From the NCBI RefSeq assembly GCF_032854445.1, contig NC_088295.1, positions 46,611,385-46,675,384 on the forward strand: a stretch of 64,000 nucleotides of DNA, in the 5' to 3' direction. The notes under the pieces were generated by a model. That model was not told the DNA's origin, did not search any database, and saw nothing but the letters and a program-made list of their open reading frames with translations. This document shows positions 9,411 through 48,100 of the stretch, piece by piece. The position numbers were made by a program, and so were the translations under genes. The DNA is from Liolophura sinensis. Lineage: Eukaryota; Mollusca; Polyplacophora; Chitonida; Chitonidae. Every line of letters starts with the position of its first letter. The first letter of the stretch is position 1.

Positions 9411-12364
9411 TCACGTGTACATGAAGTAGACCGTGGCCATGCAATCCGCATTGGCCACAACTCTGACCCAGTGAGCAGTAAAACCGTCCCGGAATGAGTA
9501 GTACTCGTATGTGTCCACTGTTAGTCGCCTCATCACCTGCCAATCTTCACCTGACAGCTGACCTGAAACACAACATCCATTTTCATTTAGTTATTTATTT
9601 TCATTCATTATTTACTTACAGAGGCTCTACTGGAGATTTTTTGGAAAAAAATAAAGAAGTGCAAATCCAGAAAAATTGTTGCTATTATTTTAGAATAATC
9701 CAGATATAATAATTACCTTTCATAAAACATCTCCATCGTCTGTGCACGTCTTGCCGTTCAAAATCGGTAATAAAGTCATAAAATTTATAATGTTTGTCGC
9801 TTTGTAACGTTTTCAAATCTCAGAATCATTTTAACACTATATATAATACGGTGTATGAGTCTGAAATTTTCTGTAAACCATTAAATGTGAGCTATTGTTG
9901 CCATATATCAGATTTTGCTTGACCGATCGTTGCATCAATCCTAAAAATAAAATACTACCCACAAAACGAAAAATGGTGAGCTAAGTTTTCTAGTGGGCAC
10001 TCTTTTAACATTTCAGTCGACTACAGTACGTTCAAAACGTAATAAGTTACTTTTGAAAGAAGTATTATGGTTTTGAGATGTAAAATGAAGTACGTAAGAC
10101 CTTCGCCCAACATCTAAAAAGTCAACACACTCCATACTCTCTCGTGAAACACACATGTTACACTGTTGATATTTTCTAGAAGAGTTAAAACAATACAGTC
10201 AAGTTAAATGATGTAAAGTATGAGTCCCGACACGAATCTCAAAATATTACGCCACGTGAAGATTGCAAACAGGTTGTAGCATAGTGTTAGATTACAAGAT
10301 TTTAAAATTAACAATGCGGCACACAACACCTAAACGTCTTCATTTGATATGAAATAGCGTTAAATTACAAGATTTTCTACCTATTTTATATTATCACAAG
10401 GTCTTGTCTGTGTTTTATTTTTTGTAACACGAACATGTGTACTTCAGATTTATTTAACACATGTTTGTGTTGGGGTAACACATTACTGTGTTGAATGAAG
10501 CACAAAGTTATGTCAGATAAAATTGTTTGCGTTGTATAAATTGTCCCTGAATCTTTTTACATTTCATACTGTATTCTTTCATAAGACAAGAAATGAAGCT
10601 TCTATATTACGGCCGAAAAAATAAAAATGAAGAGGTGACGTATAGCTGAAATGATACTGCTGTTTACTGTCTAATGCAATTGTTAGAACAATACAGGGAA
10701 ATGTAAATCAGGAAAATATAAATGAAATAAATCCGTACCTGAAGTACCTGTCACGTCCACTTCTATTGTAAAATGCACTGCCTTATCAGAATGTACAATA
10801 AAATGGACGACCTTTTTGTCAAATCCAGTCATCAAAAAAGGATCCGATGGTTTCCCTTTGGTAACTCTATCTCGCCGCCAAACTGCTCCCCAACCTTGTG
10901 GCTTCCCAAAAGCCCAGAGATCATCTGTTTTGCCGAACCATAAACCAGACTGAGATTGTCCGGTAACGACATTGCTGTCAAATATACTTGACACCTGGAA
11001 AGATGGAAAATATATTAAATATCCTACTAAACATACTAAACGAAATCTATAATGATACGAACTGAATGGTTAATATTTTTAAACGATTGAATAGTTAGAG
11101 GTTTTAGACTAGTCTTCTAATATTTACACTTAGTCATTCAGAAGGATCAACTTCCTGGAAGTCGATATTTTTAAACATTTTAGCGTGATATTGGGAGCAT
11201 GTCTCTCTGCAGACTTCCTTAGAATTTACATACATTACATTTGTGCTGAGCGGTGTCTTGGAAATTGATCTTGCGATTTCGTTTTTCTTAGAGCGTCCAT
11301 TATAGTTGATGACTGGTATCGGAATGTCTGTTGGAACGCCTAGTTAGATTTGCCCGACTAAATATTAAAAGCATCGATCAGTAGCTATCAGATGCGGATA
11401 ATACTACTTGAGCAGAAAACAATATCATGCAGCAATTGACGTTCTCAACCGATATTCATCCAACATTTCGCGCGGATTAGCATGGAGTGAAGTGAATTCC
11501 TTGATTCAAATTAAATATGTATCTTTAGCGGAGGTATCCTTTGTCGGTCGTGTTAAAATCAAAACCAGGATTGAAAATTTTACCTGATTTCCACCAAGAA
11601 CCAGAAAACCCCGATATGACGTGAAATCCGGAACTATACGCAAATGTTGGCTGATAGGCCGAATGCCCCAAGTACTTCCGGCCCAACCAAGAGGAGATAA
11701 CTCATAGAACATTCCATGAGCGTCCATCAAATAGCGTTCCGTCTCCACTTCTCGTATTCTCGTCCACTCTGTCTGCCACAAATGATCATAAGCATGACTG
11801 GCTTTAGGCAAGCGGTACGTTTTCCACAACCCGCGATTTAAAGGGTCTTTTGAATCTGTGAATGTAAAACATTTTCGAAAGTTAAATTTGGGTTGGCTTC
11901 GCAGGTTTATCTTGTTTCTTTTCACGATAGAAACTGTAGACCCATGGACTAAAATCGATGATAAAGCCAATGACGGGGAAGCAACAGCAGACGTTTCCAT
12001 AGCTTATTCTTAGTCTGGCTGGAAGGAGAAATGTTTAATACAAATAAAAGAAGACCTGTAACAAATCAGAAAGCCAACTGAAAGCGTATAAAACACCGTG
12101 ACAGCGAAATTTACAAATCCCTCCATTACAGATAAAGGTACAAAATTCTGCATTTGAGTTCTACAGGTGGACAGAGAAGATTCGGTAAATAACATTCTGA
12201 ACCCGGTCCAAATGCAGATCGTCTCCAACATTTACTGGATTGCCTCTTACCCCGAGATCAACATGTACACAAACTTTCTTCCAAATCCATGCTGACGGAC
12301 AGACACACAAGTAATCCCCTTGGCAGATGCAACGAAACGTTCATAAAAAGCAATGAAGGACCGA

Positions 12365-12412
<48 letters not shown>

Positions 12413-15400
12413 CGTGCGACCGATTGATAATTTCAGGTAAGCAGGATGTTACTTCTAACCGTTTACGCACGCACGCGTTAACACGAGTGATTCATGTCTG
12501 CACTGATTCTGTCACAAACCTGACTGTGAGTCGCTAGTTTGGCCGTCGAAGACCTTGAGAATGACAGAACGATGATCCCAGCCTACAGCGTAGATCACCT
12601 GACCCAGGTTCCGCCTGCCCGTCACCTCGACAAAAGCAGTGTTCTCTAAGATGGTCCAGTCCTTTCCCGTCCCCTGCCACTCAGCCAGCCTGCCTCCGTG
12701 CTGCTCTCTGTACCGGCATTCCAAGACATAAGTACTGAGAAAGACTATGTTCCAGTTTCAAAACGCAGATAAATTTTCATGTCTTTATCTTAGAATAACA
12801 CTTGGCAAGTCTTTCGAATTGTAGCCCAAATGGTCTAAAACTATAAGCATATACATGTAAATCTCATTTCACTTTTCAGTAATTCTAGACAGTGGCGTCT
12901 AATAAATTGCAGCTAACATCACTGTATTTTTTTCACATTTACCTTCTTTTATGTGCGTATGTTTACTTTGGGTATTACGTCGTACAATTTTTCAGCCATG
13001 TGACGCTGAGGAGTCATTAGGTGTGTGTACATATGCTGTGTTTTCTTGAGTCCAAGCCGCTAAAGTGTTACCGAGGTATCATGCCGAATACACTAGACGT
13101 GACACTTCACCCAGTCACATTATACTGACACCGGACCAGCCAGTCCTGTTCACTGGCTCCAACCTCTAAGTGCTGAGCGCCAAGTGTTTGGCATGACCCA
13201 ACATGGGCTTGTTTTAATCTGATTGCATATTACATATCGCAACAACACAACATCTTGAGTAATTACAGACCAGTGACGTGTAATAAATTGCAAATAATTT
13301 ACACAATTTTAAGCATTTACAGAAATAGTTAGGATAAAATTAACCTGAGAAAGATTGACAAGAGGCCTGACTCCACCGGTGACCATTTGTCAGCTACCAC
13401 GTAAACAGTCGCCGCTGTTTCGTTTTCACTCTTTGTACGTGTTGTTTTTTTATATTATAGGAAACGGTCCATACCCAATAAGGTCATTTTCATCGAAGGT
13501 GTTGCTTGCCACCACTAGCCTGCCGTTCATCGTGTGCGCCGCTTTGAAATGAGGCTGCTGATTGAACGGTATCTTTAGTTCGTCCACAAGGTTGTATAAC
13601 TGACTGCAGTTCAGGCGAATGACGTCACATTCCCATAATGGACCGTCCATGTCTAACATGTACACCTGGCAAGTAAATGATCGATTAATTGGCCGATAGG
13701 TTGACTTTAAACAAAATAAAAATGAATAAACTTTAAGTTTGCCGATTTGGAAGTTTTGCAGTCATGTCATGGCGATTTTTATTCTGCAAGGTGTTCATCA
13801 GTACGAATTGACTCATCATTTTTATTAGAAGAGAAAACATATAAATGATGCAAAATTCATATGAAAGCCTGTGAAATATTACCTGTGAATGTGGCCTTTA
13901 ACATTTTAATTTCGATTTGTCTTTTAGGAGTAATTTTATTTATTTACTTGTATTTGATTGGTGTTTTACTCCATACTGAAGAATATTTCATTTATACGAC
14001 GGTGGCCGGCATTATGGTGGAAGAAAACCAGGCAGAGTCGGAGGAGTGGGGGGGGGACCCACGACTATCCGCCCACGCACGGCAGGAGAGGAAGCCACCA
14101 TGAGCTGTACTTGACTTCACAGCTGGACGGCAATTGTGTCAGGCTTCTGGGTTATTGCGCCGCGCTTGCACGCTTGGTAGGTATTTGAGACTATCCCCCT
14201 TGGTATGATGAAAGTATAACACAGTTATGAAGAACTGTGCTCTATATGAGATGGGATGCATGCGATGCAAGTCCCAAATTTCTGCCATGTAAAATTATAT
14301 TCAAATATAACAACCTTATATATGTCCTTTTCAACATCTTTATGATTTCTCCTCTTTTTAGTGTACATGTATACGACAGTATATTAAAATTCACGAACAC
14401 TTTGATAAATTTAACACTATTATAGAGTCTCAAAACCACAATGACTTCTGTTTTACTTCCAGCGAAATTAGGTTTTCAGTGTGATCAAGTGGGTACGAGA
14501 GGACAATTTTGATCAACGAGCAAAGGGGAACAACTCTAACAGTGCAAATAGTGGACCCGCCGCATGGTGCCAAACCACTGCAGTACACTACAACTCATAA
14601 ACAGCTGTGCCCCATTCGTGGTAATAATCAGAACACACTTCTCACACATCACAGATAAAAAATATTTTAAACTTTTGTCTGTAATTGCACTGAAAAACAT
14701 GCAAATATATATACAAAAATAAAAGAATAAAGAAAGTTCATGTAAAAAAAAAAATTACCAAGTGTCCAAGATTGGTGGTAAATTGCAACCAAAGGAATTA
14801 GAATACTGGTGTGTACGTGTAGGTGCGTTTCTGTTCTGGTTAGGGCCTTCGTTATACAAAACGGCAATAGCTTAGCACATTAAAATAGGTATGGAAGAGA
14901 ACAGCTAGAATGTCAGGCCCTGAGATATACCGTAGCTGTCTTAAACTTGAGACAGATCTTTGAGTTAAGTTTGCTTCGTGATCCCGGGGTTAGGACTTCG
15001 ATATTATACCTGAATTTCTGGAGCCTCCATGTGCTCAGCCGTGGCGGTAATCCGCACGTGCAGTAGTTGAGAGAACGTCCGGATGGTTTCCTTGCTGTCG
15101 ATGATCCATGGTCCGATGATAATCTGGCTGGTTTCCTTGTGGATCAACCGGTTGGCAAATGTGGACTGGTGAGAGGCTAACTTGGTCAACTGTAACAAAT
15201 TCAGCATCACATCACCAAGCACAGATTTAAACCACTGAATAATTGATTTATATACTTTAACTATATTATAACTATAAAATTATAACTATAACAATGATAA
15301 TAATAATATATAATATATATCCATGTAAATCCTTATATAGTAGCAAATTATACGCCCAATCATAGCTTAATCAGAATTAGGTAAATAACAAACGCAGTGA

Positions 15401-15454
15401 TAATGCGAAGCCTATTACTGTATGCTCAGTGCAGCTTTAGTCGAAGAACACTCA

Positions 15455-15542
<88 letters not shown>

Positions 15543-18500
15543 CATCCGATTGCAACTGAAATTCGAATACATATCGGTTTGTACGTATGGGAAAAAGTGG
15601 GGTCACTTTCACAAAACTTCATAAGTCATATAACATTAAAACCATGCAAAGGGACCAGGTCTCGGGGTTGCTTAGTCCACCAGCAGAATCCTACTTTCAA
15701 AATGAAGAATATAATAAAAGACTTGAGTAAAACCAGAGCAGCGGCGACATTGTCATAATTAGCAATTTACCTCAGTTAGCGTATTATTCTAACTCTTCGT
15801 GTAAATGCTTAAATATAGTAGCAAATAACACGCCCCCTAACATTAAACGTATACGTCTAACCGTATATATCTGACACACATCCCGAGTTAACATTTGACT
15901 CATCGCTCATAAAGGTCAAAAGCATGATATTTTATTGCCAGTGTGTCTAGATTTTCTGATATCTTGGCAGTAATATCGACATTTTAGTATTAAATGATTG
16001 AATTTCAGATAACTGGAATCTATTTGATGTATTTTTTTCCTTGATGTGGATTTAATGCCGCACCCATTAATATTTCACTTATACACTGTAGAGCCCGAAG
16101 CTTATCACCGCCCTTAACCACGTACCTAGCAAACCGCCTGACTTAAAACCGCAACCGAAACTGCGAAGTCCGAATTCCAGCATACGACCTTAGTCATCAA
16201 AGTGCCCAACTGCTCCTGTTACAGCAAGTTGACTGAGTCAGAAGTGTCTAGACAAAATAATGTCTACAACATTTGTCCCTTAGCTCAAGTCACAAAAGCT
16301 GAAAAATATCCTTCTATATTTTGTATCAAAACAAAAGCCGCACGAGCTATCACAATTATTATCAATATTTCATCTCTTAGCAAAGTCACAAGGGCTCTCA
16401 GATATCCATATTTTGTCTTAGCAATGCGAGACTACATCGTGACATTGTTGTCAACATATAGAATGTCACTGTTTTGGGTCAAGCCAAAAGTTCCATATTT
16501 TTTTTTTAACCATATCACGGTATTGTGACATATACATGTATTTTGTAATACCTCACCTCCCACATTATGTATGTTACATGCACATTTTGTCCTCTTAACT
16601 TCATGAGACGACATCGCGCTAAATATGTTACAAAATGTCGTAATGTGCCGTAAATAGGAATGTTAACGATATGACAGCGATAGAGTGCCGGCCTTCGATA
16701 CTTTTTCATAACATAGCCTTACATGACCAGAGCTCGTACTTTCATTTTGGAAACCACTGTCTCTTTGTACATAGAATTAAAAGGAAGATATTATGAAATA
16801 TAAATTCAATGTATGGAGATGTGGAGAGTGGGTAGAAGACATTGGATATCATGTAAAAAGATGCTATTTTAACGTCTGGTCAATCTACCCTGCGTGGCAC
16901 TTCGGTGACTTAACGTGTTTTTTATACTATAAAATGCAATGGTTCGTGTTTTCGTACTCAATTTCTTTAATAGAAAAAGGCCGTCAGAATCCAAAAATAA
17001 GTATCATAACTCTCAAAAACGCGTAACAAAAAAACTGCCTTAGCAGGACCTGGATTCGAATGTGCTATATTGTTGGCTAATAAGCCATCTGTGTTCTGCA
17101 CAATGATTCCCCTTAATCGGCTACTATCGTCTTTCTTACTACCCTTTTTTATTGACTCCGAGACTATTCGTATCTTTATAGTATTTAACCGCCCATGGTT
17201 CAGGTTAGTGACTTACTGTACACCTCAGTACCTAACCTACATGCATGGACTATATGCATATATCATCATTAACACCAAAGATCTGTTGACACGAAATCTT
17301 AAGGTGTCGCTTGTTGACCCGATTTTAAAAACAAAGACTTCCCCTGCCGTCCGATCTATGTGTATAGTTCGGACCAGACCACAACATAACGGAAATATCA
17401 GATGGTATATAATGGTTTTAGTTATGAGGTCTGTGTCCCCCCCGCAGAGCACACCATTCTTAGGTGTATTTATATAGTAGGTTGTGGTAAGCTAGTCTCA
17501 CCAGGTGTGAATATAGCTGATCTAGTCGCACAGATCTACATCTGTTCTCAACGTTTTGTCATGCTTTCCTCATCTATTTATAGAGCTCGTCTCAGCGCTC
17601 TGCGGCTCTGTGGGGATGACATTCTAACCACATTCAACTCCTTTTTCATTTTCGCCTTTTTCATATATACATATACTTTTTTTTATACAACTGGGTATTT
17701 CTCTGCGGTTATAAGAGTCACGTGATCGTACCACACTTAAATAAGTAAAAAAATATTGCGATTCCATAGATTTCTCAGATGATAACCTATTGCTCATTTA
17801 GGCATCTTAGAAGAGCAATGTCTCCTCTAGGCTGGAGATTTAAATTTTTTCATATTAAATTTAATAATTAATATTTATTATTTTATTTATTTGTTGTTTT
17901 GTTTTCTTCACATGTATATATTTCATTTCTTTATGTTTATAGAACTGGTGCTATCGTCACTATGGTATAAACTGATTTGCGTTTTTTCTCTAATTTGTCT
18001 TTGTTTCATTCAAGTTCAAATCGGTTAGCGTGCTAGCGCAGCGTAATGACCCAGGAGACCTCTCACCAATGCGGTCGCTGTGAGTTCAAGTCCAGCTCAT
18101 GCTGGCTTCCTCTCCGGCCGTACGTGGGAAGGTCTGACAGCAACTTACGGAATGTCGTGGGTTTCCTCCGGGCTCTGTCCGGTTTCCTCTTCATATGTGA
18201 AATATTCTTGAATGCTGCGTAAAACACCAATCAAATGAATGAAATAAATAAATCTTTGTTTCACTATCATGTGCTATCGGAGTTTATTTTCATAGAGTTT
18301 GCCTTCATGGTGTCTGGAACACGGGCAGTGTTTTCTTGCTATGATTGAAACCAAAGAAACTTCCTATCGCCTGTGGAAAACTCCGCGTTGTCAATTGCGT
18401 TGTGTGGATAAATGTATGTTTATATAGTTATTTATTTCTAATGCGCATTGTACATATTAACGACTGTGGTCGGATTAACGTCCATGTTTGTCTGGCTTGT

Positions 18501-18726
18501 GAGTCCTATTTCAACTTCTGTTTGTCAGAGAACCAGCGTTTAGCATTCAGTAGAGTCCAAACTGGTAACCGGCGATTGATGAACTGAAATAAACCGAGTA
18601 CTAATAGAAAATATATACCTATATCCAGCCATTGCAAAGTTTGGCCACCTTTTGCTTGAAACAGTTTTATACTCTGATTGTTCTGGACAATGCTGAAATG
18701 CTTCATAATGGCTGACAAGTCTTCAC

Positions 18727-18778
<52 letters not shown>

Positions 18779-21700: not shown

Positions 21701-23068
21701 TGTGTAAATTAGTTACAATTAATGTGTGTACCTTTAGTTCACACATTATAGCTTTAGAGAAAGCTATACCTGACGTAGGTTGACATTGATTTGACCATGA
21801 CCTCTAAATGCTGAATGTCAAGAGAAGACACCACGAAGTCAAGTTATTTCAAGTTATTTCTGAGATTACGCAGGGCTTTAAACCCAGTAACTGTTACCCT
21901 CAGTTAAGATAAAACAGGCCTTGATTTTATAGCTCTGATAGAAACATACTACATGCATGCGTACAATTTACTATTCATTTATATTCTATAACAAAATGAT
22001 ATACGGATTAAAGGTTGAAGAGGCCTGGGAAGTGACCACACATTTGTACCGTGCAAAATATTTTACCACAGAGTTGTCTTAAATATAGATATTTCACTGA
22101 ACTTCTCAGTGCTGTAAGAAGAAATTTTAGAAAGCCATTTCAAGTTTTACATCTTTGTATTTCAGCTGTAGATTCGAACTTGAGTTCTCTTCAGGAAGGT
22201 ACAAGATCAAAATTGCAGGTGTAATTCATGCACAACGACTTGAAAATGAGGGTATTCCCTTCTTTTGCTTTTCTCGTCAGTACATTTCTCCAGATCAAAC
22301 CACACAGTATTTTACATACACTGATTTATTTCGTAATTTCACTGCATTTTTCACTTGTGTGATGACAATCGTTTATTTATGGATTTGGGAAATCAGAGTA
22401 CAGGGTAATTCAACGACGTTGGCATGTTGCTGACGAACTTTCTCATCATATTACATATCACCCAAGGACAGCGAGTGAAGGAGAAAATCCTTCCCAGCCG
22501 GGACCGAACCCGCACCCCAAGTGTCCTAGCGCCTGAATATCATGCAAGCACTTTATGACCACTCGGCCACGACCCGTTCGTACATGTAATCTGAGACCAG
22601 CTTTTTGTATTAAAAAGGTGATTGCTAAACTATGGAGTTTGGTTTAAAAGCCCTGTTTCATCTTACCTGCATGTTTTTGTCAATGGAATAGAGACCGGTT
22701 CCATTCCCACCATCGGGCACGGACAGGTAAGTGACCATGTAAAGCTTCTCCAGCCATGGCATCAGGGCACCAATACCGCATTCGGATCTTTTGTGGGCGC
22801 TGTCGGCGAATACTGCCAGCTGAGGGAAGATCCCCTGGGATTGGCTGATGTGCTGTATGTTCACGGTTGGTCCGTAATTCGCGACGCGCCCGCGACTACA
22901 ACAGGCAGACGAATTGTCTTTTTCCACCGGTTTAGAATCGGCACTGACGCGCGTGCGCCCGGCCACGGTTTTGTATTCAGGCTTGCCTGTGTTGTGTCTA
23001 CCATCGATGATGAGTGACAATTGTAATATTAACGCTAGGGCTAAACTTCCTTCCTTGTGATAACCCAT
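9411..23068 (-). CDS. Secreted protein of an unnamed family, copy 1 (seven exons)
   Basis: Exons in gene order: 22667-23068, 15010-15189, 13475-13665, 12520-12707, 11584-11855, 10739-10994, 9411-9562. All introns are GT..AG, with phases 0,0,2,1,0,1, giving 546 residues. The N-terminus ([20 protein letters not shown]) looks like a signal peptide, followed by a variable, probably disordered stretch to about residue 95. A conserved core then starts at [11 protein letters not shown]. It is rich in aromatic, strand-like segments: [75 protein letters not shown] and, at the C-terminus, [14 protein letters not shown]. The spacing of strand pairs suggests a beta-propeller-like fold, which is inference. 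I do not recognise the family, and no catalytic motif is evident. A paralogue lies at 41173-48100 with the same intron phases. The ATG at 23068 is chosen because the signal peptide follows directly. The large first intron (7.5 kb) is full of repeats. Confidence 0.88.
12365..12412. repeat. TA microsatellite
   Basis: TA dinucleotides, interrupted once by TG, in intron 4 of the 9411-23068 gene. Confidence 0.95.
12958..13200 (-). repeat. Degenerate SINE type B
   Basis: Reverse-oriented and eroded: TCAGCCATGTGACGCTGAGG (compare the cleaner copy at 3764), CCAGTCCTG and GTGCTGAGCGCCAAGTG retain the order of the type B body. It lies in intron 3 of the secreted gene. Confidence 0.5.
13316..13470 (+). 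repeat. Dispersed repeat C, partial
   Basis: GATTGACAAGAGGCCTGACT, CCACCGGTGACCATTTGTCA and CAGTCGCCGCTG match copies near 19880, 45655 and 48424. It lies immediately 3' (gene sense) of the exon 3 donor. Confidence 0.65.
13936..14178 (-). repeat. SINE type A, near full length
   Basis: Reverse orientation, from TTTATTTACTTGTATTTGAT through CATTATGGTGGAAGAAAACC to the tRNA-like GCGCCGCGCTTGCACGCTTG. A run of nine G near 14048 is an internal expansion. It sits in intron 2 of the secreted gene. Confidence 0.8.
15459..15539. repeat. TA microsatellite, about 40 units
   Basis: An uninterrupted TA run in intron 1 of the 9411-23068 gene. The open frames of alternating Tyr and Ile across it are not genes. 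Confidence 0.98.
15599..15775 (-). repeat. Dispersed repeat C, partial
   Basis: GGACCAGGTCTCGGGGTTGC and CCAGCAGAATCCTACTT recur at 20325-20375. AAAACCAGAGCAGCGGCGAC matches, in reverse, the GTCGTCGCTGCTCTGGTTTT block at 48533. It lies in intron 1 of the secreted gene. Confidence 0.6.
15776..18022. other. Intron 1 interior, no gene seen
   Basis: A degenerate SINE-like patch may lie at 16030-16200 (AATATTTCACTTATACACTG). Otherwise I see no repeat or exon. Several short open frames here lack splice signals and family resemblance. Confidence 0.4.
18023..18250 (+). repeat. SINE type A, full length
   Basis: It runs from the tRNA-like head GTTAGCGTGCTAGCGCAGCG through GCGGTCGCTGTGAGTTCAAG and TCCTCTCCGGCCGTACGTGG to AAACACCAATCAAATGAATG. 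This is one of the cleaner copies and a good reference for the family. Confidence 0.9.
18735..18790. repeat. TA microsatellite
   Basis: A TA run with one AATA interruption near 18770, in intron 1 of the secreted gene. Confidence 0.95.
19160..19445. repeat. Degenerate tandem repeat built on a SINE-like TTTCCTC motif
   Basis: About ten units of roughly 27 bp, each with the form GGTTTCCTCTGAGCTCTACC. The core resembles the GGTTTCCTCCGGGCTCTGCC segment of type A SINEs, so the array may have grown from a SINE. The 97-residue frame it opens (repeating FPL/FT) is a by-product. Confidence 0.75.
19840..20420. repeat. Dispersed repeat C, split by a nested SINE
   Basis: The left part (ATTTACATGGACAGTTAGAA, TTTGACAAGAGGCCGTATTT) matches 48436-48500. 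The right part (AGTAAGACCAGAGCAGAGAC, GGACCAGGCCTCGGGGATGC) matches 15599-15775. A type A SINE at 19968-20192 separates them. Confidence 0.6.
19968..20192 (+). repeat. SINE type A inside repeat C
   Basis: Contains GCAATGACCGAGGAGCCTCT, GCGGTCGCTGTGAGTTCACG, CCACCATAATGCTGGCCACT and the ATAAATAAATAAAT 3' tail. Its position shows it is younger than the repeat C copy. Confidence 0.8.
20702..20965 (-). repeat. SINE type A, full length
   Basis: Reverse orientation. It starts at TTTATTTGATTGGTGTTTTA and ends with the intact tRNA-like head GCTGCGCTAGCGCGCTAACC followed by AACTGAGCCACGGAGG. This is the best-preserved head in the window. Confidence 0.92.
20966..22479. other. Intron 1 interior, nothing recognised
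   Basis: No exon or shared repeat is seen between the type A SINE and the tRNA-like relic at 22480. Confidence 0.4.
22480..22585 (-). repeat. tRNA(Ser/Leu)-like relic
   Basis: On the minus strand GGGTCGTGGCCGAGTGGTCA resembles the A box of type II tRNAs, and GTGCGGGTTCGGTCCCGGCT resembles the T-arm and B box, with a long variable region between them. There is no clean acceptor stem, so it is a pseudo-tRNA or SINE head. Confidence 0.5.
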
Positions 23069-27122: not shown

Positions 27123-30100
27123 ATGTGTCGGATGTGTGCAAGAAATACAGACTCCAGCCAACTTTCGCAGGCTATGCCGGAGAAAAAGGTTAGTGATAAC
27201 GACCTTCTTTCTTTCTTTCAAAAATCTCTTTCTCTAACCGCAAGTTATAAGTTCTTTCTGTGTATTACAGTACTTCATAGGTCAGAGAGCTCTGACTGAG
27301 CTCGATAAAGTGCCGGTAATAAATTAACAGATTTGCTGCCCGGAAAAAACGGAATAGGCCTGTATGCAGATATCCATTTGTGTCAAGCTGCCTTGTTTGT
27401 CTTTGACTGGACAGTATATATCCGTGTATGAAAAATCTGTTGGAACAGGTGTTTTGGGGGTTTTTTTGCTTTTTTTTTTTTTGTTGTTTACTGGAAATAT
27501 TTTGTATGTGTCGGCCGTCACATAGGCTTCATTGTGTGATCAGTGCTTAAACCAATCCTTCGGCTTCATCGTGAGTTGCATCATTTTTATTCTGAGTATA
27601 CCGGTTCTGTAGGGACACAATCACATATGTACTTATATTTGACGTCCCGGTACTGGTACTGCACTGTATGCCTCTATCACACACACCTCAAGCCATTTCC
27701 GATTTAGACATTAGAGGTACACAAAGGCTACCATTGGGTTAATTTGGCAGTCATGATAAAGAACTGACACCTAATTGACAGTGGATAGGTCGACATGGGG
27801 GTTACTTTTTACCCATTACCAGTGGCAGTGTTGCAAATGGATTTAATATTTGACTCTCTTGTTGTAAGCATTAGGAATGTGTGGCTCCAACATACAGATC
27901 CTTGTCACCACTCCTTGGGTTTCATGTTTCATCATTTATATGATTTCTAGCCCAAGTACATACATAGGTGTTCTGGCAACTGACAGCACGTAGGCGTGCA
28001 GTAAGACACGTATGTATGCTGAACAGATTACAGCAGGCATAGCTTTTGTCAATTCAAGAAATATTGTGCTGATAAATACAATTTCGATTTGTGAACTGGG
28101 CTTAGTTTACAGCTTAAATTTGTTAGACAGTTAATGACAAAAAGTGAAATATACATGTAGTGCAAGGCCAGACAACCACATATGTATACATGTATGTTGT
28201 AATTTGACATTTTAGTGGGTATGTTCAGGATAAGAATCGTCCTAAACCTATATACATGTAATTAATGTATGCCCGGCAAGCAAATATGGGAAGCAATTAT
28301 ATTGTAATGGAAATTAGTGAGTATTTCTAAAAGTAAGTAAATGCACTCAGTTTAATCTTACCAAATTTTACATATGTGATCAAAATGGGTAGGCCTAGTA
28401 AGCCGAGAGAATCATTTTTCATATGGCTTTGAAGTATGTATTATTATTATTGATTAGTCATTGCTGGTTGATTATTTCTATTTATTTATTTGCTGTTTTA
28501 TGCCTTACTCAAGAACATGCCTTTACTTCTACAACAGCAGCTAACATTTTGGTGGAAGGAAACGATTATTTCTAATATTGTGGAAAAAGTACTTCTGTAT
28601 TTAAAGCGCTTACATTACATTTTTCAATAAAATGTTCACATCTATGTTAGTGCATTAAAAGCACCATGATGTTTTCAATGAAAAACATTGTTTTTCAATA
28701 GCTGAATTATTTTTAGTTCAGTCATCTGATTATTTTGCCTGTCTAACAAGTATAATTATTATACATCACTGGTAAGTTTTGTAAGATGCCTAAGACCTGC
28801 CCTTTTGTAAGTTATGCTTTTTGATTTTAAATTTGTTTATCCCTTTTTTCTTTTTTTTTTCAGATGAAGTTTTGTCCAGTAGATTCATTTTTGCAGAACA
28901 ATCAACTTGACTGTGTGTCGCAGATTATGGGATACCACCCACAGTACCTAGAAAGCTTCCTGAAGACTCAACAACAGCTGCTTCACGGAGATGGGCCTCT
29001 GCCATTTGATTACAGACATTACATCGGAGTAATGGTTAGTCTTCAATGTTCTATGTTAAGTCTAAGCACATGCCACAAGTTGAAGGGTGAAATACAAATT
29101 TGTGATGTTGCATTAGGAAAAGATGGTCAACCCAGTTACAGAAATTTCATGGATGGTTTTAATAACCATGATTTCTATAAATTCATATATGTCTAGACCA
29201 AAAACTGCCCAAGAAGTAGCCCTATGACAGGATGCTTTTGACAGTTATTGCCTATTCCCTAGACACCTTTATAACATTGTGTACCTTGCCTAACGAGTGA
29301 CTACTGGTTGGATGCCATGGGTCAAGCTCATTGACAGGAGACATGTGAAGCATAGGGTTAGCCAGCTACCATTTTGACAGCTGAAGCAAAAAGTTAGTTC
29401 TATTTGAACTCCATATTTTCAGCACCTAATAGTAAACATGTGAAAGAAAAGTGACATCTGGACACTCTGCTCGAATGAAATGACCTGAAAAAGGATTGCA
29501 TGGAAACTCTCTTTCATGATTTGTCACAAACTTCATGATGGCAAGATTTTTTTAAAACACCGACATCTGGAAGGGAAAAAAGAATCCAACAGGGAAAGTG
29601 AAGAAATAATTTTCATGTTATATAACTTGTTACGAGCAAATTTATTTTTTCCTGAAAATTTTTAGGCTTTGAAACACATTTTTCCAATTTTGAAAATGTA
29701 AGGGCTTTTTCTGAATTTAAATATGAATATTGGTTATGCTGTTTTGCAGGCGGCGGCCAGACATCAGTGTGACTATCTTGTGAAACAGCAGACTACAGAG
29801 TTCGTGTTAGCTGGCGGAGATGAAGCCTGGCTGAAAGGACTGGATTATATACCTCAGAAGCTGAGAAACCTGTATGAGGTCAACAAGCTGTTAGCACACA
29901 GGCCCTGGATGATAACAAAGGATCACATAGAGGTGCGTGGTTATCTCCCTTGGATGACTAAGCCCTATTAAACTAGGCTCAAAGATTATTTGATATTTTT
30001 TGAAAAGAAAAAATTATAATGAAATGAAGGGAAAAAAATGTGAAATGCGAATTAGTAGGAAGTGATCGATGGATGTATGTTGCAGTGTTATTGTTAATAG

Positions 30101-33100
30101 GAGACCAGCATATGTGTACAACCTGTCCTTGAACTGGGATATGAGACTGTGAAGGTCTTGCTGACATTTTGCATAACATCAGGTTATGACGACATTATGC
30201 AGCTTTGCCTGAATTCACACTGTTTGCAGTGAAGAGCAAAGTTAAAGACTCAGCTGAAATGCCGAAGTAATTAAAATTTCCAAGAGTTGCCTGTTAACTT
30301 CAGAATTTTGCCCTTTTGAATTTATTCAAACTGAATTAAAAGAAGTAAAAATTGCATTACAGTGTATGCATGACGATAAATTGTTACTTTGATGATCAGT
30401 TTATATAGGTTAACTCTGTGGGAGGAAAGTCAGATATGGCTTTTTAATTTTTGCGTTCCTTTAAGTCTCATAGCTTGGGCTAAAATTGAGAAATTCTGGA
30501 ATTAAGTCTAATATTAGAGTTAATGGGGAACTGAAAAATATTGATATTGATTAAGAAGTAATAATATTAAATGACATTTTTTAAATCAAATTAATAAAAG
30601 TATACATGTTTCAAATTTCTAATTCCTCTTAATTCTGACCTTTTTGGCTTATTGCTTTAATTTGGGCACCCATTATCTGGCTTGATAAATGGGGGACAAG
30701 GTTATTTCACTTGTTATTTGTAGCAGCAGGGTGGGGCCGTACCCTTATTTCACGGTATAACAGCTGGGTGGGGCCGTCCCCTTATTTCACAGTATAACAG
30801 CAGAGTGGGGGTAGGGCCCTCCCTTGCTCGGATGACTAAAGCGCAGGCTCACATTGTCACGGCGCTGGCTGCCATTATCATGCCCTTGACCAATAAAGTC
30901 ACAGCGATTGCTCCTTTGGCTACAGCTTTAACTGATGAGGTTTGTCAGGTATCTGACAAAGGGAAGTGGTATACTTCAGGCATTCGATTTCCCCTGCAAA
31001 TAAACCTGCCCATGGTCATATGAGTGCTGAGTATGGCGGAGGAAAAAACATATGAAATAAATAAATTTGTACATATGTATAAATACGGTGTAACGTATTG
31101 CCCATGTTTAACATGCGTCGTTATTGTATTTACAGAAGTTGACAAGAGGGCAGGATAACTGGTCCTTATCGGAGGTGATGCACGCTCTCATTCTGTTGGC
31201 TCACTTCCACTCGTTGTGCAGCTTTGTGTCCGGCTGTGACATCCGAGACGAGGAGATTGAAGAGACCTCAACCAGCACATCATCGAACAACAACGTACAG
31301 ATGCTCAACTGTAACAATGTACGTCTCCTGGTTGATTTTCTTGACTTTAACTCTCCATTTTGGAGCAGTGTAAATATGGTCTAATTTGTTGTTAAAGGCT
31401 ACAAGATAGTGTAAATTTATTACTTCAGTCTTTATAGGTCGAATTTGGTTGTCGGTAGCGGGTAAAGGCCATTTAGGTTAAGGTGCTTGCCTTTCAATTG
31501 CTTGGGGCACATAAGATTCGGATTCAATCCCAGCTCTCAGTGCTCAGGCTGTTTGTAGGGCCGTGGTGACCATAACTAATGGATGATGCTCAGGAGGTCT
31601 TCAGTGTAGTCTGATGTTTGCTGAAGACAACAAATCTTCCCGCCAATATGGTGTGCATATCTCTATGTCACACATAGGAAAATTTGTGCATAAGGCCACA
31701 CCCATTTAAAATGCTGGCTTACGGGAAGAATAATTTTTTTTTTTCTATGCCTGAGGAGGGTATAAAAATAAGAATAAAACTTGAATATGATGTAATTTGT
31801 GGAAAATGTGGACTGTCTGAGCAATTTTTCCCAATCAGTTACAAGATTGAGAATCCTTGAAAATTAGGAAAAATCATTAAAACCTTGAGGTCAGACAAAA
31901 TAAGAAACTGGATTTTAAGTTTTATTCTGGCTCAGTTGATTAGCGCGCTAGCGCAGCGTAATGACCCAGGAGTCTCTCACCAATGCGGTGAATTCAATGT
32001 CCAGCTCATGCTGGCTTCCTCTCCAGCCGTACGTGGGAAGGTCTATCAGCAGCCTGCAGATGGTTGTGGGTTTCCCCCGGGCTCTGCCTGGTTTCCACCA
32101 TAACGCTGGCCGCCGTCGTATAAGTACGGCGTAAAACACCAATCAAATAAATAAATAAATTAAACACAAAACAAACAAAAAAAAATTTAATGTTGCCTAA
32201 CTTGCAAAATATTGGAGGTTTACCCATGGCAGTGTGGTTCCTTCACTCAAAAAACAGACAGCCGTCTTGTAAGTGAATAATTTTAAAGTATACCATTATA
32301 CAAATCATATAAATAAATAAATGCATGTCTGTGTTCCAGAGTGCTGATGTGGGTATAGCTGCCCTGATGGAGAGGATGAAGAAGCTGACAGAAGAGAGCA
32401 AAGATCAACCCAGCCAAGAGGAGATGCTCAAGAGATTCGAGAAAGTAGAGACACAAAGTCTGGAATGTAAGAAACAGTCTCTGTGACCAATCTGTTTCAC
32501 GGTTAAGAGCTGGTCCCTCACTGACTCAATTAACTAAAGTGTTAGTCTAGCAGCAGGTTAAAGGGCCCTGATATACAGCAGTCATTTAACTAAGCTAAAA
32601 ATTAAATACTTATAAGTACATAAATTATTTGGGGTTTTTGGGTTTTTTAGTTTCTGTATATTTTTAATTTTTTAATTTTATTCTGAAATATCTGTATTGT
32701 TATCTCTGCTAAATGCATACACAAAAGAAAGTAGCAAGGATGCAGTTTTTTTTTTGGTTGCAGTCTCCAACAACTTTTTTTATTGTTCTTTTTTTTTTTC
32801 CTTCCAGTAACACTAGATGTGGCTCATCCGTCCCCGAGAGTAGAGTTGCTGAAGTATGTGGAAGACTCGGGTTTTGTGTATGAAGATTTCGCCAAGAGAG
32901 GTTGTGAGTCAGAGAAGCCTACCTTTAGAGCTCAAGATTTCTCCTGGGAAGACCATGGGTTCTCACTGGCTAACCGACTATACAGTGGCATCGGCAACCT
33001 GCTGGAAGACAAGTTCCGTGTGGCCTATAACCTGACCTATTACACGTAAGGCATTTTCTGTGTTTAAGTATTGTTTTACTCTTGTGTTTAAGGTGAGAAC

Positions 33101-40900: not shown

Positions 40901-41050
40901 TACTGAGCGTGACAGAGAGATCTATATCATTATAGGCCTGCATGTACATAGGCCCAATGCGTTGGGGACAGTCTCGGTGAGTTAGACAGTGAATGTCGTT
41001 CTAACTTTAGACTGATTTGATTAAGTAGTTCCGCATTGCTATACTCAGCA
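37926..41050. other. Intergenic, no gene seen
   Basis: AT-rich, with TTTATTTATTTATT near 38430 and a repeated ACTGACTGATTGATTGATTG run near 39535. No exon or type A, B or C repeat is clear. The sequence close to 41051 is the presumed promoter side of the second secreted gene. Confidence 0.4.
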
Positions 41051-41058
41051 TATAAAAA
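41051..41058 (+). promoter_or_regulatory. Probable TATA box of the second secreted gene
   Basis: TATAAAAA, 115 bases before the chosen ATG at 41173. This spacing allows a start site about 30 bases downstream and a 5' leader of about 90 bases. Confidence 0.45.
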
Positions 41059-41172
41059 GCGTGTAGGCCGATATAGGCTAAGGTTATTTAACCGCGTGAC
41101 AGCCCGACCACTCTATCACTCTGTCACCCTGCGTTCTGTTTGGCAAGATACAGGCCTATAACAACAACGGAC

Positions 41173-44100
41173 ATGAAACTGAGTGGACTCTTGTTCCTGT
41201 TGGGAATAGCCTCCGCCGTGAGAGAGCAGAGCGTCGGTACGGCCGATGGGACCGGTGTTGATGGCAGAGTTAAGTATCGACCCGACGGAATCAAAGGACA
41301 AACCAAATCATGGCGCGGGAAAAATAAAAAATCGAGTACCGGTATGTCTCTGAACAGCCAATCTCCTCAGCCCGCTGCCTTCTTTTTCTCCAGGACGTTC
41401 GTTGACATCCCGCCCCCTCCCACGCCAAGTTCCGGTAACTCATCTATCGCCTCCATGCAGACGCCCATTCAAATAGGTGGCATATTTCCGAACTACTCCG
41501 TGCTGGCAGACACCGGCCCCAAGCGTTCGGAGTGCGGCATTGGGGCGCTAATGGCATGGGCAGATAACCTCTATCTGGTGTCCTATCTGTCCGTTCCGGA
41601 CGCGGGCAGTGGTACTGGTCTGTACGTGATTGACGGAGATAACTATCAGGTCAGTGCGATATGATTAGGTACTTTGACATCAATATGGCCACATTTACGG
41701 ACCTAACTGCCACAATTATCTGTTAAAATATGTCAGGAAGTGGGAAAGGGAAATGTTGTTTCCTCCTGAGGCCGCGGTTTCCTTGCAGGTGCATGTGTAG
41801 GCCCATCCTTATCAATCACCGTGACAGTGCGCTGCCTCCTCCCACCTTCCATCATAATGCTGGTTGCCGTCGAATAAGTGAAATATTCTTGAATACGACG
41901 GTAAACACCCATCTGATAAATAAATAAATAAATGAACACATAAATCAGAGTGAGAAATGGGATGTCGGACCAACACAAAACATGTACACTCAAGAAATAA
42001 ACCTTTCTGAGTGATGCTAGAATGTATTACGTTATAATAACATAATATTATGTCACATGCAACACAGTGTCCAGTCATTCTAATGGAATGTTTATGTTGA
42101 ATTAATGGAATATATGTGTTATATTTAACAGAACAATCTGCTGTAATAAGAGAATACATTCTACAGTAGACTTTCTGTTAAACTTAACAGATTAATTTTG
42201 TATTAGTGTATTGAGGTCAATTAGAAACGAACGAAGTGTCCGTAAAAAGTGCGAAAATTGGTCAGCGCCGCTGATGGGTGTGAAAAAGGGGTATATTGAC
42301 CCGTTAATAGCGTTGTAAAAGGGCTTTGATCATGCAGATGGAAAATGCGTTCGTTGGTGCTCATGTAGGGTGTTCAGTTTAATTCAGCCGAAATGCAGGA
42401 AATTATCTACGAGATTAAAAATATACATGCTCGGTTGTCATTAGTAAAAGCTCGGAACGGAGTAGGAATGCTTTTGAGAGGTCCCGACTCATTATGCATC
42501 AAAATGTATAACTGCGGCCATGGTTGCTTACATGAATAGCGCTAAAGACCCGTTCTCACGGTGCGATTTGTAGTACCAACTTAATACGTTGCATTCAATT
42601 TGTAGTGTTCGACAAAAACCGCATGCGACGTGTCTCGGGCATAGTGTTTTCCCCGTTTAGCTCCGTTGCTAAGGTCTGGCGTTGTTGTAGGCACATTTGT
42701 CCATGATTACCCTTTTCTGCAATTTGCATGATGTATATTCCACAGTAGATCTTGACCGAGATCGTATATAAGCAATAAACTGTTGGGTTTTAGTGAGTGT
42801 TGAAACCAGTCTCGTTTTCCCGGTAGAAGCACTTGTTTCGTCTGCTTTTTCGGACATGGCTGTAGAGAAGCCGATTGATGACGCAAAGAGGGATAACGCG
42901 TAGTGGACAAATTTGAAACGATTTGATTGGCCAGTGCATGCGATTTGTAGAATAGCGTTTTCTCCATTTCCTTTCGACTACCTCACACATCGCTGAATGC
43001 GACAAAAAGCGACAGGATTCTAGTGTTCTGACGCTTCCACTCGGTTGTATGTCACAAGTTTGTACTACTAATCGCACCATGAGAATAGGCCGTTAAGCGT
43101 CGCTGCACATATTCGCTGTTCGATGCTGTTACGTTTTATTCCGTCTTTGCATGTTGTCCATGGTTGAGTAAGCTATAGTAATCCAGAAATACGCCTACTA
43201 AGAAATGCTATATTTTCATGCCTATATCTTTTTAAAACAGACGCCGTCTTTGAGTTTTTTATTTTCGTTTTTTTCCTAACTTTCAGATGCGACGTTTGGT
43301 ATCACATCAGTCCACCTACGCCAATCGGATCATCCATAAAGAGACTAATCAAATCGTCATAGGTGCGTGGCTTATTGACCAATCCGGGAACCTGAAGACG
43401 TTTGAGGACTTATTGCACGTGCGGGTAGCAGCCACTGCCGAACATCTCACAGATCCTGCCAATAAGGTTTCCTTTATAGTTTTCTTTGCATGATAAACGT
43501 ACATGACATCACAGCAGGGTTTTCGTTTACACATTTAAATTTATTTATTTATTGATTCGTGTTTACGCCGTAATCACGAATATTTCAGGTATATAGTGGG
43601 AGGAAACCGGGAAATGCCCGGGGGAAAGCCATTACCATCCGCAGGTTGCTGATAGACCTTCCCGCGTACGATCTTGTTCTTACTGTTATGCGATGTGCTG
43701 TCTGTAATATGATAGTATAATGTATCAGTTTGAATTATTTCATTTTATTTTAGCTATTGACCGTAATATTTACTTGTATGTGCTAATATTTAAAAAATCT
43801 ATAACAATTTTAAAAAAAAATTCAGTCAATTTTCAGTCATAATTACCATTGGTTTGTAGTAGAAGTAGTAGAAGTTTTTTTCTGCCTTTTTTGAGCAAAC
43901 ATGAGGTCATTGGATTGATTTCCATGGTTTTATTTCCTCCAGGTATACATGCTCGGAATGGATGGACCGCTGTGGGAGTGTGACGTCAATAAACTGAATT
44001 GCACACAGCTTTTTGATTTGGTGAAGGAATTAGACATTCCCAGCGAAAAAGGGGAACAACCCCACTTCAAGGCCGCTCACACCCCATGGACAATCGCTTG

Positions 44101-47100
44101 GTTGTGGCCAGTAACACATTTGAACAAGCAGATTTGAAAGGGTAAGTTTGAAAATGTTAGATGCTGTATGTACATAGGTAGAATTCAAGCGTGGATAAAT
44201 CAAGTTTGTTAAGGTTAACCCTAACTGCAAACCTACGCAAAATAGCAAAAAAAAAATGATATGAAAGGTTATGATTGATTGAAGTTTTTTGTGTCAAAAA
44301 TCAGCTGTGACAATGTAATTGGCCTCAGATTTCAGTCTACACGACATAACACACAGCCACCAGGTTTCATTCTACACAACATAACACACAGTCACCAGGT
44401 TTCATTCTACACAACATAACACACAGTCACCAGGTTTCATTCTACACAACATAACACACAGTCACCAGGTTTCATTCTACACGACATAACACACAGCCAC
44501 CAGGTTTCGTTCTACACGACATAACACACAGTCACCAGGTTTCATTCTACACGACATAACACACAGCCACCAGGTTTCATTCTACACGACATAACACACA
44601 GTCACCAGGTTCATTCTACACAACATAACACACAGCCACCAGGTTTCAGTCTACACAACATAACACACAGCCACCAGGTTTCAGTCTACACAACATAATA
44701 CACAGCCACCAGGTTTCATTCTACACGACATAACACACAGTCACCAGGTTTCATTCTACACAATATAACACACAGCCATCAGATTTCAGTCTACATACAT
44801 AACACACAGTCACCAGGTTTCATTCTGCACGACATAACACACAACCACCAGGTTTCATTCTACACAACATAACACACAGCCACCAGGTTTCATTCTACAC
44901 AACATAACACACAGCCACCAGGTTTCAGTCTACACGACATAACACACAGCCACCAGGTTTCATTCTGCACGACATAACACACAGTCACCAGGTTTCATTC
45001 TACACAATATAACACACAGCCATCAGATTTCAGTCTACATACATAACACACAGTCACCAGGTTTCATTCTACACAACATAACACACAGCCATCAGATTTC
45101 AGTCTACATACATAACACACAGTCACCAGGTTTCATTCTACACAACATAACACACAGCCACCAGGTTTCAGTCTACGTGACATAGCACACAGTAAACCAT
45201 ATGTCAACCATATAATGTCGCGCTTCACCCCCGAACCTGAACCCGAGCCTGAACTGATTGAACGATTATGGATGACGGAGCTATAATGGATGCATTGTCT
45301 AGCAGCTTCGGGCGATTCAATGCATATGCATTAGAACCATGACGTGTAACGAACGTCTATATGCGTTATATACAGGGTATAGAGACTATGCATCATATAT
45401 ACATGAGAAGATGATTTCTCATCCGAGAATTTCTTCTTCGCCGACCCCACCCGCTTTACCATTCTCCGGGTTCGACAAAATTAAGTCAGCTGAACTAAAC
45501 CTTTGTCATCTTGATGGTCAGCAAGTAAACTTTCTGTGGGTAGCAGGAATGTTGCACACTAACTACATTTCTTGCTCAAATGGCATATTTTGTGCACAGT
45601 GATGGCCCAGCCGAAAGTTTCACTGCTGAGGCACCACCAGAGTTTATATATAATCCTGACTGAGGTAAATTGTCAGATTTCACCGGTTACGTGGGACCAT
45701 TTGCCAACTATCACACTGTCGTCGCTGCTCTAGTTTCACTCTCCATCCTGTAATATTTTATATTGCCCTTATTTCGTAGACACCTATAACTGCGTAAAAA
45801 TTTCAGAGAGCAGCATGGTGGTCGCCTGGCAGAATGGAAAGGACCAGGTAGTAAATGGACCATACTGGCGAGAACAGCTTTCGTTGAGGTGACCGGAAGG
45901 AGAAACTTCGGCAAAGTAATCTATGCCGTTGGCTGGGACAAACGGTCGGCCATCTTGAAAGTGTTCGATGGTGGAGACGAAGGTAAGTTAGACGGTATCT
46001 CTGAATTTGACCCACGAGGAAATAATCGTATATGTCAGAGTGGCACCATTAAAAAATGTTCATTGCAAGAAGATTCAATAGAAGATTCTTTTTATTAGGT
46101 ACAGGAAAGACATGCGGTTGAATTGTTAACACGTTGCGTCTGTCGCATAGTTCCGCACGTTTTGAAAAACTAGCCCCAAGGGAATTGTTCAGATGTTATT
46201 TATTTATTTATTTATTTACTTATTTGTTTGATTGGTGTCATATAAGTTTTATATTTTACTTATACGACGGCGACTAGCAGTATGGTGGGAGGAAACAGAG
46301 CAGAGCCCGGGTATAACCCAAGACCATCCGCAGGTTGTTAACAGACCTTCCCATGACGTTAGCAGTTAAGACCTGTATCAACTTTACTCTGGACTGGGTT
46401 TTGCACTAAAACAAGATTGGTATTAAGCCTGGCTTAACTTTTAATACACTTTTGAACAACTAGTCCAGGGGGTTTATGGTAATTGGATGCTTTCTTTCTT
46501 GGCATCGACTAAAAGTTAACACAGCTTCTTGTGTCAAACCTGGTCAATTGTAGTTTTCATCATATTTATAACAAGCTCATAAGTTTTATCCCTGTATTTG
46601 GACAGTTGCACTTCTTTTTTGTAGGCGAACCGTCCAGTTGGCAACAATGGCAAACATACCGACTTCCTAAAGCTAGCCATGCCTTTGATCACCTTTGGCA
46701 AACAGAATGGCCGAGGATACGAGAAGTGGAGACAGAACGCTACCTGATGGATGCTCACGGAATGTTCTATGAGTTGTCTCCTCTTGGTTGGGCCGGAAGT
46801 ACTTGGGGCATTCGACCAATTAGCCAACACCTTAGAGTCATACCGGATTTTGCATCTTTTAGGGGAACATTGGTTTTAGGGGGCAATCAGGTACTTGGTG
46901 CGTTATCATTTCAACATTAATGATTCAACAAGCAAAACATGGCCTAAGTCTGGTATAACTGGTATAACAGTGTTCTGCAATTAGTATTTTAATTGTGTAA
47001 TACGCATTCATTTTCCGAACTGTGAAATTATAATTTCCAGACCGGATTTAAAACGTATCAATGTAAACAAAACACTTGCTTTTGCCAACTCTGATCATGA

Positions 47101-48100
47101 CGTCTTCCGATCAAAAGAATGTTCTTGTACACCCAATAGTTATCGCTTAACAGACTTACAGGCCTAAATATTCTTAGCAACAAGTCCTTCCGTAGATAGT
47201 TTGTATAAACACACAGCGCATTGAAATTCTTTTGACTAACTGTTTGAAATTGGTCTTGCGATGACAGACCCGGGACGTCTGTTCTTTGTAAACGCTTAAC
47301 CCGTGACAACATCTGCATTTGCCGTGTCATATGTTATCTTTGCAAGTGTTTTCACCTTCATGTACATTTAACATGTTGCTTTTCTTATTATATTTTAAGG
47401 TTTCCAGTATATTTGACAACAATGTTGTCACCGGGCAATCTCAGTCCGGTATGTGGTTTGGCAAGACGGATGATCTTTGGTCATTTGGGAAACCACAAGG
47501 ATGGGGCGCTGTCTGGCGGAGGGACAATGTAACAGAAGGGGTTCCGTCCGATCCCTATCTTATGACCGGTTTTGACCATAAAGTCCTGCATCTAACAGCG
47601 CACGTGGCACACCCGGCACACCCGGGTGTAACCTTTGCCATCGAGATAGACTACACTGGAACAGCAGGTGGGTTCAGAAAAAGTGGACCTCAGTTAATGG
47701 TAGTGTATTTATTAGTCATTTCCTCCCTCACTCTGCTGTAACTCTGCTAGAGGCCCGTGGTTTACGCTGGGCACCCATGAAAATGACCTTCATCGTATAA
47801 GTGAAACATTTCAAATAAGTTAAATATTTCTCAGTTTTGGTCACAATGGGTAGTCGAGAGAACGTGTCCTGTTTGTGTGAATCAGTGGAATGACAGCACG
47901 AATTCACTTAACCCGAAGTCATCTGATATGTTTTTTCTGCAGGTCACATGTCCGGAGAGGATTGGAATGTGTTAACTCGAATAGGTGTCTATAATGGCGG
48001 ATATAATTACTACACATTTCCACCCGGATTCAGTGCTCACTGGGTCAGGGTCGTGGCTAGTGCAAACTGCACGGCAACTGCCTATTTTCATTATACATGA
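41173..48100 (+). CDS. Secreted protein of an unnamed family, copy 2 (seven exons, frameshifted)
   Basis: Exons: 41173-41649, 43287-43466, 43943-44141, 45807-45982, 46625-46890, 47400-47667, 47943-48100. All are GT..AG, with the same intron phases as the paralogue at 9411-23068. The signal peptide MKLSGLLFLLGIASAV is followed by a Lys/Gly-rich then Pro-rich linker (PPPPTPSS) and, from about residue 120, the conserved core ([96 protein letters not shown]). Exon 3 carries two extra bases within 44082-44085 (four C where the frame needs two), so as printed the frame runs into a TGA at 44136-44138. Discounting the two bases, the length is 573 residues. Every other exon and splice site is intact, so this is either an assembly indel or a very recent lesion. 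Function unknown; probably extracellular. The ATG at 41173 precedes the signal peptide directly. Confidence 0.85.
41815..41935 (+). repeat. SINE type A, 3' half
   Basis: CCACCTTCCATCATAATGCT, then GTGAAATATTCTTGAATACG and the tail ATAAATAAATAAATGAA. The tRNA head is missing. In intron 1 of copy 2. Confidence 0.75.
41986..42210. mobile_element. Palindromic MITE, copy 3
   Basis: Inverted termini ACACTCAAG and TTAGTGTA. The arms share CTGAGTGATGCTAGAATGTA and GAATACATTCTACAGTAGAC with the other copies. In intron 1 of copy 2. Confidence 0.82.
42543..43098. mobile_element. Non-autonomous DNA transposon with about 40-bp terminal inverted repeats
   Basis: The left end CTCACGGTGCGATTTGTAGT is matched in reverse at the right end by ACTACTAATCGCACCATGAG. 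Both continue into AC.AACTT. There is no open frame large enough for a transposase. The flanks do not show an unequivocal target duplication (TTAA on the right, TAAA on the left). It is unlike the MITE family in sequence and in length. Confidence 0.78.
43541..43671 (-). repeat. SINE type A, truncated
   Basis: CGTGTTTACGCCGTAATCAC, GTGGGAGGAAACCGGGAAAT and ACCATCCGCAGGTTGCTGAT, in reverse orientation, without a head. In intron 2 of copy 2. Confidence 0.75.
44082..44085 (+). other. Frameshift position in exon 3 of copy 2
   Basis: The run CACACCCCATGGAC has two bases more than the frame of the paralogue (GCACACGATGAAC on the other strand). The residues after ATG (start [12 protein letters not shown]) align with the paralogue only in the shifted frame. 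Confidence 0.85.
44327..45190. repeat. 35-bp minisatellite, about 25 copies
   Basis: The unit is CCACCAGGTTTCATTCTACA then CGACATAACACACAG. Variants (CCATCAGATTTCAGTC with a shortened CATACATAA) recur three times in the second half, giving a higher-order pattern. It lies wholly within intron 3 of copy 2. Confidence 0.95.
45655..45770 (+). repeat. Dispersed repeat C, partial
   Basis: CTGACTGAGGTAAATTGTCA, TTTCACCGGTTACGTGGGAC and CTGTCGTCGCTGCTCTAGTT match 48470-48560. It ends about 35 bases before exon 4 of copy 2. Confidence 0.65.
46197..46353 (-). repeat. SINE type A, truncated
   Basis: TTATTTGTTTGATTGGTGTC, TTATACGACGGCGACTAGCA and GCAGGTTGTTAACAGACCTT, in reverse orientation. In intron 4 of copy 2. 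Confidence 0.75.

Follow-up and report, generated by a model that had tools for sequence, protein, structure and literature searches.

Two predicted secreted-protein genes of an unnamed family in the chiton Liolophura sinensis and their relatives in Planctomycetota and Verrucomicrobiota

Two genes on opposite strands of a chromosome of the chiton Liolophura sinensis code for similar, apparently secreted proteins, which raises the question to what family they belong and how they came to reside in an animal. They were analysed in a stretch of 64,000 nucleotides, here called the window, to which all coordinates refer. The minus gene (9411-23068) was rebuilt from the raw sequence and found to be intact, with seven coding exons specifying 546 amino acids and six introns, GT-AG in 6/6, in phases 0,0,2,1,0,1. 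Coding exon 1 (22667..23068) holds a putative signal peptide, an unconserved linker and the start of the core (blade 1), exon 2 (15010..15189, 180 nt) the invariant residues R148, H151, R180 and H187, and exon 3 (13475..13665) the likewise invariant H233, K235 and N249. Exon 4 (12520..12707) is followed by exon 5 (11584..11855) with the TEWxRIR and DAHGMFYEL blocks (E350, W351, R353, D397), exon 6 (10739..10994) with the [10 protein letters not shown] block and exon 7 (9411..9562) with the end of a C-terminal strand-rich domain and the stop codon.

The plus gene (41173-48100) also consists of seven exons, located at 41173..41649, 43287..43466 (180 nt), 43943..44141, 45807..45982, 46625..46890, 47400..47667 and 47943..48100 (with the stop codon), and its six GT-AG introns lie in places homologous to those of the minus gene. 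Exon 3 measures 199 nt versus 191 nt in the minus gene; as assembled, its reading frame is shifted near 44083, in a short C run, and an unbroken frame hits a stop within the exon. No stop was found in the remainder of exon 3 or in the next four exons, and the frameshift is the sole lesion across the seven exons, with splice sites intact. The initial annotation had correctly recognised two seven-exon genes on opposite strands with a second exon of 180 nt in each. Its description of common intron positions and phases stands for the positions, which are homologous and all GT-AG, but the phases of the plus gene match those of the minus gene only when the frame is restarted past the lesion in exon 3. 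Both N-termini resemble signal peptides, as judged by eye, and the linkers behind these putative signal peptides align poorly, in keeping with the earlier view that they are unrelated. Intron 3 of the plus gene contains a minisatellite (44296-45132) whose period is about 35 bases, in 17 overlapping register copies.

Across a core of about 470 residues the minus and plus proteins are 71% identical, and they share the block [20 protein letters not shown] letter for letter, as first reported. A degenerate DNA pattern of 26 bases, covering a portion of this block, matched exactly twice in the window, with 0 matches expected (100 shuffles). Over 462 codons of the two genes, synonymous differences were saturated (pS 0.81) with a pN of 0.184, which indicates that both proteins have been under constraint. 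The only inverted DNA similarity remaining in 9000-48500, at a minimum of 120 nt, is that of exon 5 (246 nt, 80%). Together with the saturated pS this makes the duplication an old one, and a recent duplication of the pair is rejected.

The surroundings of the pair are those of an animal. Between the two genes, and not part of the system, three exon-bearing stretches on the plus strand (28831..31384) represent part of a sestrin gene; joined, they match sestrin-2 with an E-value of 2.6e-47, so that the proposed position of sestrin, flanked by the pair, is correct. A single-exon reading frame for a rhodopsin-type GPCR lies at 837-1937 (Pfam 7tm_1, E 2.2e-31), and Ion_trans and ankyrin-repeat exons were found on the minus strand at 52882-62599, resembling, in our reading, a TRP-type channel gene. 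The window belongs to a 609-Mb assembly of 632 contigs. With its GT-AG introns and its sestrin, GPCR, ion-channel and ankyrin neighbours in an assembly of this size, the intron-bearing pair resides in an animal chromosome. Elsewhere in the window, peptide fragments that resemble one another turn up in the open frames of either strand near 8.5, 18.1, 20.0, 20.8, 32.0 and 55.8 kb in the manner of a dispersed repeat, and long TA-type simple repeats (IYIYIY frames) occur near 12.4, 15.5, 18.7 and 51.2 kb.

Searches of Pfam, NCBIfam, PHROGs and PDB sequences gave no match above cut-off, in line with the earlier failure to match the core to a named domain. In Pfam this holds for the animal protein as well as for five bacterial members. 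The matches that appeared were weak, namely DUF4335 (E 0.12) and two archaeal SAM-hydrolase chains (E 0.44), and those of the bacterial members were sub-threshold. In the literature search, no title or abstract was recognised as describing the family.

Bacterial homologues, which the initial annotation had proposed to look for, were found. These full-length, intronless relatives in Planctomycetota and Verrucomicrobiota are 45-56% identical to the animal proteins and are reported here as new. A scan of prokaryotic genomes yielded 12 relatives among 43 candidate stretches, all full-length and without introns, with 45-49% identity in the best segment; by their record titles, 11 belong to groups of Planctomycetota (Phycisphaerae, Phycisphaerales, Brocadiaceae or Planctomycetota) and one to Verrucomicrobia. 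By profile search, matches were present in 25 of the 294 genomes drawn from the Planctomycetota (the phylum of locus L010), in 46/240 from the Verrucomicrobiota (the phylum of L008) and in 37/248 from the class of L001, the last draw overlapping with the 294 Planctomycetota genomes. One relative was detected in 72,556 plasmid records, on a plasmid of Spirosoma oryzicola. There were none in 50,697 phage records, nor in three scans of viral contigs (57, 1 and 47 candidate stretches), and a viral or phage origin was therefore rejected. All relatives found in the collections searched (prokaryotic genomes, plasmids, phages and viral contigs) are bacterial.

Three architectures were assigned by hmmsearch of the loci. 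The single-core form, to which the animal proteins are alike, has about 465-530 residues. In the extended form, of about 900 residues, the core is preceded by an N-terminal extension, and the double-core form (about 800-1000 residues) has a second copy of the core's C-terminal half (model positions ~240-450). Single and double forms occur together in the Verrucomicrobia genome of L008. The extension is M14 carboxypeptidase-like in L003, of which the N-terminal 434 amino acids match metallo-carboxypeptidase 3k2k (E 3.1e-10), and in L004, which scored 22.2 bits against Pfam M14 (cut-off 21.6). The core is thus fused behind such a domain in some Planctomycetota (L003:6684-7985, L004:535-1770). 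Likeness to M14 carboxypeptidases is limited to the extension of these bacterial members; neither the animal proteins nor the bacterial single-core form has this domain.

A first tree was built from 71 rows, comprising 69 of 88 bacterial loci and the animal pair, after 16 duplicate or partial and three split matches had been dropped. The label M14 in the trees denotes an N-terminal extension of >400 residues only, kinship to M14 being established for L003 and L004. With a support of 100, 42 single-core, extended and animal rows were split from 29 double-core rows, and from the branch lengths we place the midpoint of the tree between the single and double forms, away from the animals. A second tree of 42 rows, used also for the AU test, left out 23 double-core and six extended rows. 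Here the animal pair (100/100) joins L078 (94/83) and then 18 single-core rows (92/85). A topology that keeps the bacterial single-core and extended rows in one group, with the animals excluded from it, costs 4.9 log units with a p-AU of 0.25, so the nesting of the pair among bacterial rows is not significant. Identity between animal and bacterial single-core rows has a median of 49.6% (45.0-56.0, 80 pairs). Bacterial single-core rows compared with one another have a median of 53.4% (44.5-93.8, 780 pairs), a range that contains the animal-bacterial values, and 150 of these 780 pairs are no closer than the animal-bacterial pairs.

The simplest reading of these data is probably a transfer from bacteria to an ancestor of the animal, followed by intron gain and duplication, which the AU result (p 0.25) falls short of proving formally. 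The home of the family would be in Planctomycetota and Verrucomicrobiota, and an ancestor of Liolophura sinensis would have received the gene from them in its single-core form. The addition of a signal peptide and of six introns would have followed, and then, long ago, the duplication. According to PMC11311677, GH32 genes were repeatedly acquired by invertebrates from bacteria and received introns later; by analogy, GH32 is a parallel for the evolutionary route of the animal pair.

With regard to protein structure, a first fold model had a pLDDT of 61.4, and a second model, for which exon pieces from the window were added, reached a mean pLDDT of 70.8 and a pTM of 0.65, with residues 253-311 below 50. 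The second model aligns to YncE and WD40 propellers, which we take to be seven-bladed, and seven blade-end motifs run across the core at residues 125, 161, 203, 263, 306, 367 and 427 of the minus protein. The fold is probably a seven-bladed beta-propeller, followed by a C-terminal strand-rich domain. The beta-propeller suggested earlier is supported by a propeller-like model and by the motifs, but the model is partial and does not secure the number of blades or the pocket. All 71 cores compared, both animal copies included, agree in 17 invariant charged or aromatic residues, among them Y114, R148, H151, R180, H187, E96, E350 and D397, and the earlier remark that the core has no catalytic motif is consequently unlikely to hold. 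R79, H82, R111, H118, H164 and K166 of the second model, corresponding to R148, H151, R180, H187, H233 and K235 of the minus protein, are positioned at or beside the strand ends of successive blades. A ring of invariant His, Arg, Lys and Glu residues contributed by successive blades would make up the active pocket, on one of the propeller's faces, if the geometry is as predicted.

Gene neighbourhoods were assessed for 21 bacterial loci (L001, L002, L003, L008, L010, L013 and L089-L103), with 40 chosen neighbours scanned against Pfam; the neighbours of L013 were taken from its annotation, and L091, L094, L095, L099, L101 and L102 lay outside the Pfam scan. A carbohydrate-type gene was nearby in 11/21 loci, a raw count from the 40 neighbours without a random-gene control. 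These genes are a sulfatase (L003, L008, L097), GH130, GH63-like and GH36 genes (L001), GH2 (L089, L103), a heparinase II/III-like gene (L090), a SASA esterase (L002), carbohydrate-binding domains (L093, L100) and SusC/SusD (L013). A regulator of the LacI, IclR or AraC type was located at most two genes away in nine of the 21 (L001, L089, L090, L093, L094, L096, L097, L100 and L103), again a raw count without a random-gene control, in which four regulators were assigned by clustering with a Pfam-tested one. GH2 directly follows the family gene in L089, with a divergent LacI before it, and in L097 a sulfatase follows and a LacI precedes. IclR is found directly before the family gene in L001, L093 and L094, while L103 displays one row of GH2, an AraC-type regulator, a sodium-solute symporter and the family gene. 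On the Spirosoma oryzicola plasmid, a more distant, double-core member (L013:11917-14397) is placed directly after genes for a TonB receptor (SusC) and RagB/SusD; a GH130 gene is situated about 6.5 kb beyond it. L010 and L092 had no carbohydrate-type gene or sugar-type regulator among the neighbours scanned.

The closest mechanistic parallel, by analogy, is offered by the polysaccharide lyase families PL24, PL25 and PL42 (former GH145), for example LOR_107, PLSV_3936 and FoRham1. According to PMC8377490, these are seven-bladed propellers that act on acidic sugars (uronates) by His/Arg/Tyr catalysis in a pocket on one face, and FoRham1 is assigned to Pfam BNR_4 (PF15892). The family described here likewise combines a predicted propeller with invariant His, Arg and Tyr residues (H151, H187, R148, R180 and Y114). 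Membership is not claimed because the sequence profile is not matched: BNR_4, the PL42 profile, had no match in the animal protein or the five bacterial members, and the three lyase families share no sequence match with the family. The two His residues are spaced differently (151/187 here versus 85/105, 146/167 and 123/143 in the propeller lyases), and the family differs further by its C-terminal strand-rich domain and its double-core form. None of the three lyase families was among the structure-search matches listed (Foldseek, VIA-align), which is no proof of difference.

GH43 and GH32 enzymes, with a five-bladed propeller and a beta-sandwich, likewise have a propeller followed by a strand-rich C-terminal domain, and they supply many of the top Foldseek matches (best E 3.8e-8; best GH43 match in another search 4.2e-8). 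Since the TM-scores are 0.22-0.30 and the rmsd 13-20 A, these matches are not superpositions. The GH32 and GH43 Pfam profiles gave no match above cut-off, the better, second model aligns instead to YncE and WD40 propellers, and an assignment to GH43/GH32 by fold was rejected. E96, E350 and D397 are invariant and may be set beside the three catalytic carboxylates of GH43/GH32. Virginiamycin B (streptogramin B) lyase showed at most 10% identity and was tied with dozens of unrelated propellers; the fold alone is common.

The best-supported explanation is probably that the proteins are secreted enzymes with an extracellular glycan as substrate, with catalysis suggested by the conserved residues. 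They would cleave an acidic or sulfated polysaccharide, a substrate type favoured by the many invariant His/Arg/Lys residues and by the nearby sulfatase and heparinase-like genes. Propellers also occur widely among binding proteins, and animals use secreted propeller lectins. The animal proteins could then be non-catalytic, lectin-like or matrix propellers that bind a glycan or other ligand through the invariant residues; sugar-linked propellers do include binding proteins and sensors, and the BT4663/BT3049/BT4673 sensor ectodomains and BtuG appear in the Foldseek and VIA-align lists. We consider this quite improbable: such a density of E, H, R, K and D kept over a large divergence is more typical of an active site, and the genes of several bacterial members are arranged with those of degradative enzymes much as in an operon, or follow a sugar-type regulator of their own.

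Two further alternatives concern the history of the pair. The gene could be ancient and vertically inherited in eukaryotes, or bacteria could have acquired it from them, and the AU result together with the long residence implied by six introns and saturated synonymous divergence is compatible with either. Both are unlikely in view of the large and diverse bacterial family, with its single-core, double-core and N-terminally extended members; moreover, the animal pair sits on one side of the single/double split, as near to single-core bacteria as some of those are to each other, and the tree midpoint does not fall at the animals. A somewhat more plausible, yet doubtful, possibility is that the minus copy alone works, the plus copy being on its way to becoming a pseudogene. 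Its frameshift speaks for this; the rest of the gene is free of lesions, the sequence after the lesion is no less conserved than that before it (pN 0.162 vs 0.226), and indels in base runs are a common type of assembly error. On the whole we lean, with some reserve, towards a secreted propeller enzyme that acts on glycans and belongs to an unnamed family; the animal lineage would have acquired its gene from bacteria, and the gene would then have gained introns and been duplicated.

The initial suggestion of a possible new extracellular family is supported in part, the supposed lack of a catalytic motif being the exception. More tentatively, the sequences could represent a new family of carbohydrate-active enzymes, propeller lyases or hydrolases that come in single-core, double-core and carboxypeptidase-fused versions in Planctomycetota and Verrucomicrobiota; animals would have domesticated one of these versions as an enzyme secreted for digestion or matrix remodelling. 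The locus is of more interest than first stated because an anonymous animal gene pair is now tied to bacterial genes of an unnamed family that lie in settings of sugar degradation. If the reading is true, it would put a name to a gene family missing from the annotation libraries searched and would provide a test case with clear bacterial relatives, plausible substrates from the sulfatase and lyase-like neighbours and few invariant residues to mutate. It would also add one more likely glycan-degrading family to those that animals acquired from bacteria.
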